Below are positions 1,310-37,101 of a stretch of DNA of 64,000 nucleotides, in pieces. The stretch's first letter is position 1, and every line of letters starts with the position of its first letter. This DNA is from an uncultured Lachnospiraceae bacterium (GTDB lineage: Bacteria > Bacillota > Clostridia > Lachnospirales > Anaerotignaceae): assembly GCA_944383855.1 (NCBI GenBank), contig CALWRB010000033.1, forward strand, positions 1 to 64,000. Reading direction: 5' to 3'. The position numbers were made by a program, and so were the translations under genes. Under the pieces are notes generated by a model. The model had not been told where the DNA came from and made no database searches. It was given only the letters and a program-made list of their open reading frames with translations.

Positions 1310-1810
1310 ATGCAAACGGAACGCAAACAAGAATTATCTGCTTACCTGACGCAGCACCAAAACGCATTTTACCGCCTGGCGTATTCCTACACCGCCAATC
1401 GGGAAGCGGCATTAGATGTCGTGCAAAATGCCGCCCTGAAGGCGTTGCTTTACTGCGACACGCTGCGTCAGCAGGCATCTATGAAGACATGGTTTTACCG
1501 CATTCTGGTCAATGAAAGCCTGTCTTACCTTAAAAAGAATAGCCGTGAAATACTGTGGGAAATGGAAGACCTCAAAGAGATCCCGGACACAACAAAGGAG
1601 GAGTGGCACGAAGAAACCCTGACCTATGCCGCATTGATGCAGCTGCCGGAGGAGATGAAAACCGTCATTATTCTGCGGTTTTATGAAGACATGACACTTT
1701 CGGAAATATCCGATGTATTGGGTATCAGCCTCAGCAATGTCAAATACAGACTCTACGGCGGGCTGAAGAAAATGCGCAGCATACTGGAAATGGAGGCGAA
1801 TGATCAGTGA
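1310..1810 (+). CDS. ECF-type RNA polymerase sigma factor, SigV-like
   Basis: A 166-aa extracytoplasmic-function sigma factor. Region 2 (about residues 12-75) holds the DVVQNA and TWFYRIL motifs. Region 4 (about 105-158) holds the helix-turn-helix LSEISDVLGISLSNVKYRLYGGLKKMR. The start follows GGAGGAATCCCT. The gene is immediately followed, with a 4-bp overlap, by an RsiV-type membrane anti-sigma factor. This pairs it with the SigV/RsiV branch, which in Bacillus and Clostridioides responds to lysozyme and switches on cell-wall modification. By analogy it would be released when the anti-sigma factor is cleaved. That response is inferred from the pairing, not visible in the sequence. Confidence 0.88.
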   Translation: MQTERKQELSAYLTQHQNAFYRLAYSYTANREAALDVVQNAALKALLYCDTLRQQASMKTWFYRILVNESLSYLKKNSREILWEMEDLKEIPDTTKEEWHEETLTYAALMQLPEEMKTVIILRFYEDMTLSEISDVLGISLSNVKYRLYGGLKKMRSILEMEANDQ

Positions 1811-2754
1811 CAGAACAAAATATAACGGAAAAAATCAAATCTTCCCGCGCGGTATATGAACAGATCGAAATACCCGATGCGTTAGCAGAGCGTATGGCAG
1901 CCGTACTGGCGGAAGAAACAACCGACGAAACCGAAAGCAGACAAGCAGACAGACGAGAACAGACAAGACGAGAACAGATAAGACGAGAACAGAAAGAAGG
2001 ACTGCATATGAAAATGAAAAGAAAACATTTTTGGAGAACTTGCGGCATTGCCGCCGCGTGTGCCGTATTTTGCTTTACGGCAGGGCTAAACGCAAGCCCC
2101 GCTTTTGCGCAGGAAATGAGTAAACTCCCGCTGATCGGCAGCATTTCCAAAGTACTGACTTTCCGCGTTTACGACTATACGCTTTCAGAAGATGGCGAAA
2201 GCATTACCGTCACCATGCCGCAGATCGATGATACCGCAGAGAGCGCACAAACGGCTAACGATGCGATCCAAAAAATCGTTGCCGAGTATGAAGCGCAGGC
2301 GCAGGAGGATATCGCTGCATATAAAGAAGCGTTTCTGGCAACCGGCGGAACAGAAGAAGAATTTGCAGCCAAACAAATCACCGCGGATATTTTCTATGAC
2401 ATCAAATCCGAAACAGAAGACAGAGTATCCTTTGTCCTCTATGCACAGCAAAACTGGAACAGCTCCACCGCGCAACAGTATTATTACAACATCGATTTAC
2501 AGCAGGATCGTGAGATCACATTACAAGATCTGCTGGGCGAGGATTATATCGCCATTGCCAATGAACAGATCGAAGCAGCTATTGCAGCCGATAGCAGCGG
2601 GTTATTCTTCTCCAAAGAAGAAGGCGGCTTTGACACCGTGACAGACGAAAGTCACTTCTATATCAACGAGGCAGGCAATCCCGTGATTGTATTCGATCAA
2701 TACGAGATCGCCGCAGGCGCTGCCGGAATGCCCGAATTTGAAATTCTTCCTTAA
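1807..2754 (+). CDS. rsiV: RsiV-like membrane anti-sigma factor (DUF3298 ectodomain)
   Basis: A 315-aa single-pass protein that would hold the upstream sigma factor inactive at the membrane. The start is GTG, overlapping the sigma stop as GTGA. Residues 1-35 (EIPDALAERMAAVLAEE) resemble the sigma-binding N-terminus of RsiV. Residues 49-63 are three copies of RREQ plus one residue, encoded by a 15-bp tandem repeat. The membrane segment is about 77-95. The extracellular part ends with the DUF3298 signature (about 215-305, with DESHFYINEAGNPVIVF), the lysozyme-binding domain in characterised RsiV. A second start with its own ribosome-binding site lies at 2008. Gene order sigma-anti-sigma supports the call. 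Confidence 0.87.
   Translation: MTEQNITEKIKSSRAVYEQIEIPDALAERMAAVLAEETTDETESRQADRREQTRREQIRREQKEGLHMKMKRKHFWRTCGIAAACAVFCFTAGLNASPAFAQEMSKLPLIGSISKVLTFRVYDYTLSEDGESITVTMPQIDDTAESAQTANDAIQKIVAEYEAQAQEDIAAYKEAFLATGGTEEEFAAKQITADIFYDIKSETEDRVSFVLYAQQNWNSSTAQQYYYNIDLQQDREITLQDLLGEDYIAIANEQIEAAIAADSSGLFFSKEEGGFDTVTDESHFYINEAGNPVIVFDQYEIAAGAAGMPEFEILP
1951..1995 (+). repeat. 15-bp tandem repeat x3 inside rsiV
   Basis: Three direct units of 15 bp (1951-1965, 1966-1980, 1981-1995) share the first 13 bases, AGACGAGAACAGA, and differ at position 14 (C, T or A). Each encodes RREQ plus T, I or K. The unit length keeps the frame, so copy number could vary without breaking the protein. Confidence 0.9.
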
Positions 2755-2772
2755 AAGAAAGAAGGGGTCAGT

Positions 2773-3264
2773 ATGAAACGAAAATATGTAGGTTTACTCC
2801 TCGGTCTGCTTGTTTTCCTAAGCGGCTGCACCACACATGCCGAAGCGGAACGCAGCTTGCTGCAGACCACACTGCGCGCCAATGATACGGATTACCAAGT
2901 CAGTCTGGAGATCCCGTCTGATCTGGAAGAATACCTTTCTTTGGAAGCTTTGGAGGAACAAGAAGGCTTTGCACTGATTCACTTTGCATCGGGAAACAGC
3001 GTCGCAAACATTGGAACCCTCGCTTTGTATCCGGCAGAGGAGTATGACGCATTGAAAAAAGAAGAACTGCCGTTAGAAGATGAGGTTTTGCGCGATGAGC
3101 AAAACCAGGTCGTGCTGGCGTTTCAAGGCATACAGGACTCCGTTTTTGAACCCGGCAGCGAAGAAGCGGAACTTGTTTTGCAATATCATGATGCATTGGA
3201 AGAAATCTTAAGCAGCCTTACACTGCAAAAAGTCAGCGACGAAACGAATGCTTCCGCAGCGTAA
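2773..3264 (+). CDS. Predicted lipoprotein, third gene of the sigma operon
   Basis: A 163-aa protein with a lipoprotein signal peptide: charged start, hydrophobic core, lipobox LSGC with the modified cysteine at residue 19. The mature part is acidic and has no domain I recognise. It begins 18 bp after rsiV on the same strand with no terminator between, so it is probably cotranscribed with the sigma and anti-sigma genes. A role in the envelope stress response or in modulating sensing is a guess from position only. Confidence 0.75.
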   Translation: MKRKYVGLLLGLLVFLSGCTTHAEAERSLLQTTLRANDTDYQVSLEIPSDLEEYLSLEALEEQEGFALIHFASGNSVANIGTLALYPAEEYDALKKEELPLEDEVLRDEQNQVVLAFQGIQDSVFEPGSEEAELVLQYHDALEEILSSLTLQKVSDETNASAA

Positions 3265-36066: not shown

Positions 36067-37101
36067 TTATGCTGCTGTGTCAGCTTCTTTGATTCTGTTT
36101 ACCCAATCAGCCAGATCAGGGAATTTTTCTTCTGCAAAGCCGTCAAAGTGTGCTGCGAATGCGTCCTGATCTACTTCGATGATGGTGCAGCCTTTTTCGA
36201 TCAATTCAGCCTCTGCAGCTGCTTCTTTATCCAGCTGGCTTTCACTGATTGTCTGGCTTGCATAGTCAGCAGCTTCTTCTACCATTGCCTGAATTTCTGC
36301 GGGCAGGCTGTTGAAATAGTCGTCATCCATGATAACTACGTTTGCACTGTATACATGGTTTGTCTTGATCCAGTATTTACATACTTCGTCAAATGCGTAG
36401 TTCAAAGAGTCTGCCATCGGGTTTTCCTGACCTTCAACGGTACCCTGCTGCAAAGCGGTGTAAGTTTCTGTTACAGCGATCGGAGTAGGCGCTGCGCCCA
36501 TCCAGTTCCATGTTTCCAGATAGATCTCCAGGTTCGGTGCTCTCAGTTTAAAGCCTTTGAAGTCATCGATGGTAGACATCTCTTTGGTTGCGGATACGAT
36601 TCTGGGTCCTCTGAATGTTGCGCCCAACAGTTTGAAGCCTGCTGCCTCACCGATGGTGGTCTTCATTTCATCACCCAGTTCGCTGTTCCAAACACTCATA
36701 AAGTGATCATATCCACTGTAAACATAAGGCATTGCATCGATGTTTGCCAGAGGAGAGAATGTGGAAAGTGTACCGATGGATTCTACCATCAGGTCTGCTA
36801 CGCCGTAGCTCATGCCTTCCAATACCTCGGAAGTGGTACCCAAGCTGCCGCCGCCGTACAGCTCTACTGTGATCTGACCGCCGGAAATCTCCTCGATCTT
36901 TTCTTTGAAGGCAGCACCCATATCATATGCATTGTCGCCTTCTGTGGAGTTCAGTGCCATCTTCCAAGAATATGTAGTGTCCGCGCTGTCGCCGCCGTTT
37001 GCATTGCCGCCGTTTGCGTCACCGCTGTCGCTGCTGCCGCAGCCTGCCAATACGCCTGCCGCAAGAACTGCTGTCAAGGTCATTGCAAGAAATTTTTTCA
37101 T
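36067..37101 (-). CDS. dctP: TRAP transporter substrate-binding lipoprotein (DctP)
   Basis: A 344-aa extracytoplasmic binding protein. Signal peptide with lipobox LAGC (Cys about residue 21), a Gly/Asn/Asp linker, then the DctP fold: YSWKMALNSTEGD, AAGFKLLGATFRGPR, the substrate arginine region DDFKGFKLRAPN and the TALQQGTVEGQENP helix. The family binds organic acids through a conserved arginine. A nearby dehydrogenase suggests a hydroxy- or sugar-type acid, but the ligand cannot be read. GGGAGG precedes the ATG. Confidence 0.95.
   Translation of the reverse strand: MKKFLAMTLTAVLAAGVLAGCGSSDSGDANGGNANGGDSADTTYSWKMALNSTEGDNAYDMGAAFKEKIEEISGGQITVELYGGGSLGTTSEVLEGMSYGVADLMVESIGTLSTFSPLANIDAMPYVYSGYDHFMSVWNSELGDEMKTTIGEAAGFKLLGATFRGPRIVSATKEMSTIDDFKGFKLRAPNLEIYLETWNWMGAAPTPIAVTETYTALQQGTVEGQENPMADSLNYAFDEVCKYWIKTNHVYSANVVIMDDDYFNSLPAEIQAMVEEAADYASQTISESQLDKEAAAEAELIEKGCTIIEVDQDAFAAHFDGFAEEKFPDLADWVNRIKEADTAA

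Follow-up and report, generated by a model that had tools for sequence, protein, structure and literature searches.

RsiV of Bacillus subtilis, at once a lysozyme receptor and the anti-sigma-V factor, is the described system closest to the gene considered here. Its residues S169, P259 and Y261 are reported in PMC5014341 to be critical for lysozyme binding, and for the P259A Y261A double mutant the same paper gives a binding that is about 100-fold weaker in the text and 600 +/- 400 nM against 70 +/- 20 nM for the unmutated protein in the table. This double mutant is also described as reduced in lysozyme inhibition, an activity which the ectodomain (59-285) is reported to have on its own (PMC5014341). 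According to PMC6066255, a segment of RsiV protects the protein against signal peptidase; antibodies against the RsiV ectodomain are recorded as used in both papers. The second point of comparison is spa33 of Shigella, described in PMC6925163 as giving, by means of an alternative start codon, both the full-length protein and one shortened at its N-terminus. Term searches of the accessible text of PMC4183432, PMC5014341 and PMC9044953 gave nothing on an internal start in rsiV, although the ectodomain antibodies just mentioned were in use, and none was found reported in the titles and abstract openings of the RsiV literature and that on anti-sigma factors and internal initiation, few subscription papers being among them.

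The rsiV-like gene described here lies in a window of 64,000 nucleotides, by which we mean the whole stretch of DNA that was analysed. As in B. subtilis, it stands behind a sigma-factor gene and encodes a protein with a cytoplasmic N-terminus, one membrane segment, a DUF4179 region and a DUF3298 ectodomain. Unlike B. subtilis RsiV, the protein scores below the equivalog cut-off and has alanine at both the P259 and the Y261 position, and its gene has a repeat-bearing linker and a candidate internal start. The features of the locus are as follows:

1310-1810, + strand: ECF sigma factor gene, SigV-like, 166 aa; Sigma70_r2 and r4 above Pfam cut-offs
1807-2754, + strand: gene for an RsiV-like anti-sigma factor, 315 aa; its GTG start overlaps the stop of the sigma gene
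1861-1884, + strand: conserved motif QIEIPDAL on the sigma-binding side; P23 and L26 invariant in 34 sequences
1935-1951, + strand: 8-bp repeat of 2.1 copies adjoining the 15-bp array (Tandem Repeats Finder, TRF)
1951-1965, + strand: 15-bp unit 1, AGACGAGAACAGACA, RREQT, in frame with the ORF 1807-2754
1966-1980, + strand: 15-bp unit 2, AGACGAGAACAGATA, RREQI, in frame with the same ORF
1981-1995, + strand: 15-bp unit 3, AGACGAGAACAGAAA, RREQK, in frame with the same ORF
1997-2001, + strand: Shine-Dalgarno (SD)-like AAGGA, at the tail of the array, from predicted 16S-tail pairing
2008-2010, + strand: candidate internal start ATG (M68), in frame, 5' of the membrane segment
2008-2754, + strand: predicted short RsiV form, from reading frame and Pfam
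2044-2109, + strand: hydrophobic segment with an AFA signal-peptidase-like site, from hydropathy and alignment
2773-3264, + strand: lipoprotein-like gene with an LSGC lipobox, 3' of the rsiV-like gene

The identification of the gene as encoding an anti-sigma factor in the original prediction holds, with DUF4179 (31.6 bits, cut-off 30.1) and DUF3298 (49.3 bits, cut-off 24.1) both above the Pfam cut-offs and the ECF sigma gene adjoining. The sigma-binding role of the QIEIPDAL motif is inferred from its position. PDB entry 5JEN, which is B. subtilis RsiV, is the top match of the protein both by sequence (E 2.5e-14) and by predicted fold (E 7.3e-11). Nevertheless, because the score of 152.2 bits for the NCBIfam RsiV equivalog stays under the cut-off of 250, the protein is referred to as RsiV-like only; for the sigma gene, the top NCBIfam match is SigV, with 154.8 bits under a cut-off of 190. 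The sigma gene, the rsiV-like gene as the second and the lipoprotein-like gene likely form an operon (1310-3264). The product of the last has no Pfam match above cut-off and no NCBIfam match, and at the corresponding place behind rsiV relatives have comparable ORFs of one or two domains. The nearest relatives of the RsiV-like protein appear to come from Anaerotignum and other Anaerotignaceae and reach at most 59% protein identity. The family search covered 58 genomes, one per species, with no near strain among them; in the sole genome of the same genus no rsiV of the window type turned up at E <= 1e-40, and a single scan using the window protein yielded no relatives.

A response to lysozyme, named as one option in the original prediction, cannot be assumed for this protein, because the positions of P259 and Y261 are both taken by alanine (A303 and A305 in the 5JEN alignment, with the numbering offset inferred). 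Of the 80 genes whose motif could be located, 19 have the same pair of alanines. The S169 position aligns with S220 in a loosely aligned stretch of the 5JEN alignment. Given the two alanines and the score under the RsiV equivalog cut-off, the label "lysozyme" is doubtful for the window protein.

The main candidate feature of the gene, absent from the original prediction, is a possible second translation start between the array and the membrane segment. The 14 bases before M68 have a predicted pairing energy (dG) with the 16S tail of -9.1 kcal/mol, not far from the value of -9.5 calculated for the start of the sigma gene itself. In the sampled part of the organism's own genome, 47% of first-Met starts are as strong as or stronger than M68, and 104 of 2675 internal Mets (3.9%) are as strong. 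The predicted short form would comprise a basic n-region, the hydrophobic segment, an ASPAFA site, the DUF4179 helices and DUF3298. Taken by itself, the site in the window gene is not significant against synonymous shuffles (p 0.596), and the window gene ranks last in strength among the 16 complete genes of its family.

The comparison with relatives is what brings the site out. Those inspected have a Met immediately 5' of the membrane segment, behind SD-like DNA, and the 14 bases preceding such a Met (-17 to -4) were scored for their energy of pairing with the 16S tail and compared with synonymous shuffles of the same residues. All 16 complete window-type family genes, a count that excludes L007 (frameshift) and L019 (contig end), have a pre-membrane in-frame Met with a dG of -9 kcal/mol or lower, a threshold chosen after the first loci had been inspected. 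Against the shuffles, the combined p for these genes is 7e-8, or 5e-5 over 8 site types and 0.003-0.007 with one value per genus (5 genera); the idea of an internal start came from the same loci that display it best. The sequence and position of the site vary by genus (e.g. AAGGTGATNNNATG, AGGAGGAAARMGCTTATG, AAGGAGGAAYTACGCATG), and the surrounding protein sequence hardly aligns within the family, yet the site is kept.

In the whole first set of 79 genes, 21 are without a pre-membrane Met and the other 58 have a combined p of 8e-17, a value that ignores kinship. For the remaining 42 genes the combined p is 6e-11, although some of their sites differ from the family site because they overlap the IPxEL motif itself. 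At the threshold of -9, 38 of 98 pre-membrane Mets stand against 8 of 313 ectodomain Mets in this set, and a control of 9 sigma-factor ORFs gives 2 of 59 Mets. In a second set, 62 genes from named genomes after removal of 23 ORFs that duplicated either first-set genes or one another, 31 genes have no pre-membrane Met; the 31 genes with one give a combined p of 0.0036, with 7 of 31 pre-membrane Mets against 13 of 205 ectodomain Mets below p 0.1. Judged by these comparisons, the putative internal-start feature holds strongly within the family but is scattered outside it, where its replication is weak. With the Met missing in 21 of 79 and 31 of 62 genes, respectively, a universal internal start in RsiV is rejected.

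In L018, L020, L023, L030 and L062, an SD-like sequence is found within the conserved motif on the sigma-binding side, followed by a Met at start-like spacing; the motifs concerned are of the types IPEELxxM and SEELIM.

Twelve DUF4179 anti-sigma factors other than RsiV were picked from 30 loci as looking unlike rsiV. Of these, 2 have a strong site and 7 lack a pre-membrane Met, which does not support the site as a general feature of the DUF4179 anti-sigma group. One such anti-sigma factor, L228, has a pre-membrane Met behind AAAAAAGGAGGAATTTGTTATG (dG -12.2, p 0.037), which may be an internal start in a further anti-sigma family.

Three Anaerotignum genomes (L002, L003, L007) have a second DUF3298 gene behind rsiV which lacks the sigma-binding part. 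This short paralogue starts at AAAGGTGATTGAGATG (dG -13.6), the same kind of block (AAGGTGATNNNATG) as is found within the rsiV of L004-L006, L008 and L009, and its upstream remnant RKIRGKVIEM resembles KRGKVIQM of L004. It resembles the predicted short RsiV form in its ectodomain family, in this kind of start block and in being without the sigma-binding part; it differs in being a separate gene behind rsiV and in the stretch that follows the export signal, which in rsiV forms the DUF4179 helices and in the paralogue is unlike it. As it does not have the segment that protects B. subtilis RsiV from signal peptidase, the sequence suggests that the paralogue is probably secreted. The rsiV of L007 (805-860; also L105) is frameshifted in an A-run just past the internal Met. 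The length of this run differs from that in the close relative L003, and the frameshift could be a sequencing error or mark a slippery tract.

Taken together, we consider it about an even matter that the window gene combines an array of the neutral slippage type with an adjoining internal start that would yield a short RsiV. Ribosomes would also initiate at the in-frame ATG downstream of the sigma-binding motif and ahead of the membrane segment; the product would have no anti-sigma domain while retaining the segment for export and the ectodomain that senses the ligand. A protein of this kind could take up ligand without setting sigma free; it might then serve as a decoy, raising the threshold of the sigma response, and, if lysozyme is the ligand, inhibit the enzyme. 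More tentatively, and with slightly less conviction, we propose that the rsiV-like genes of the Anaerotignaceae are dual-product genes, giving a membrane anti-sigma factor and, from the internal start, a short exported receptor lacking the anti-sigma domain that would titrate the ligand and so set the threshold of the response, and that the short form may have been turned into a separate gene in some Anaerotignum. The parallel to spa33 would be that one gene gives a long and a short product; in Shigella this is experimentally shown, whereas the short form here is predicted, would be without the regulatory domain and would keep the export segment. The support for the candidate dual-start rsiV is comparative. 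If it is correct, a gene for a receptor-type anti-sigma factor would also encode its own decoy, a simple way of setting the threshold of a stress response, and with lysozyme as the ligand an inhibitor would come from the same transcript.

The foremost alternative is that slippage produced a neutral repeat which the linker tolerates, that the SD-like stretch is a by-product of the Lys, Arg and Glu codons placed before the membrane segment by the positive-inside rule, and that one protein only is made. The shuffle result for the window gene itself and the missing pre-membrane Met in half of the named set are on its side. However, the excess in the family persists against shuffles which preserve the amino acids, the Anaerotignum paralogue begins at the same kind of block, and the excess is restricted to Met codons, with a share of 63% among 27 Mets and of 4% among the 401 remaining codons of that stretch. 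We regard this simpler account as quite possible, if clearly short of probable. The Met specificity also argues against a role in pausing: SD-like pausing before the membrane segment was rejected as the main reading, as the excess is found only at Met codons and overlapping neighbours.

The in-frame RREQT/RREQI/RREQK array at 1951-1995 is correctly placed by the original prediction and lies, as that had it, in the part of the protein that links the sigma-binding N-terminus with the membrane segment, its three units being residues 49-63 of the protein. TRF extends it to 1946-1997, with a period of 15, 3.6 copies and a score of 83, the maximum in the window. Its identity at lag 15 is 28/30, far above chance: the best of 60 first-order Markov resamples of the window gives 21 at this lag and 22 over all lags from 5 to 40. 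The RREQ codons are identical in all three copies (chance about 5e-5 given the shared residues and the codon usage of the window), so that the array is a duplication of DNA and not merely a protein motif. In the AlphaFold model of the protein (34 sequences, mean pLDDT 81.5, pTM 0.60), the array falls inside a helix of residues 24-96; block means of pLDDT are 77 and 84 over residues 41-60 and 55 over 61-70, with confidence below 50 at residues 66-72 around the candidate start M68. The linker that carries the array is thus, according to the model, probably helical. We read the array as a young in-frame slippage expansion that is tolerated in the cytoplasmic linker: the 15-bp repeat exists as described but is probably nothing unusual, the number of its copies most likely makes little difference to the protein, and alone it would matter little.

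That the copy number is a tuning device, as the original prediction suggested, stands only in so far as the number of units differs between species: the 14-nt core CAGACAAGACGAGA occurs once each in L002, L003 and L007, against about 3.6 units in the window, and is absent from the other eight relatives checked. In its full form this account has strains vary in unit number, with steps of five residues altering the helical linker and with it the coupling of ligand and sigma release; the unit is in frame, and within the model helix five residues amount to about 1.4 turns and would rotate the ends relative to each other. On the other hand, there are just 3.6 imperfect units, neighbouring full units differ by one base, and the linker, counted from the IP motif up to the membrane segment, varies widely, from 34 to 56 residues in the 16 complete family genes and from 22 to 98 (median 31) over 54 genes. 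With its length so loosely constrained among orthologues, a finely tuned linker is unlikely, and we give the tuning account little credence.

Least probable of all is that the purine-rich array serves the internal start as open mRNA and standby site, its unit number setting the ratio of short to full-length RsiV: the array does continue into the SD-like site and 9% of synonymous shuffles of the region from -45 to +45 fold as weakly or more weakly, but relatives possess the site without the array, and the folding result is that of one gene at the 9% level, with mRNA openness at the internal site mixed in the family.

Elsewhere in the window, TRF finds a second 15-bp tandem repeat at 36988-37025, with 2.5 copies and a score of 55.
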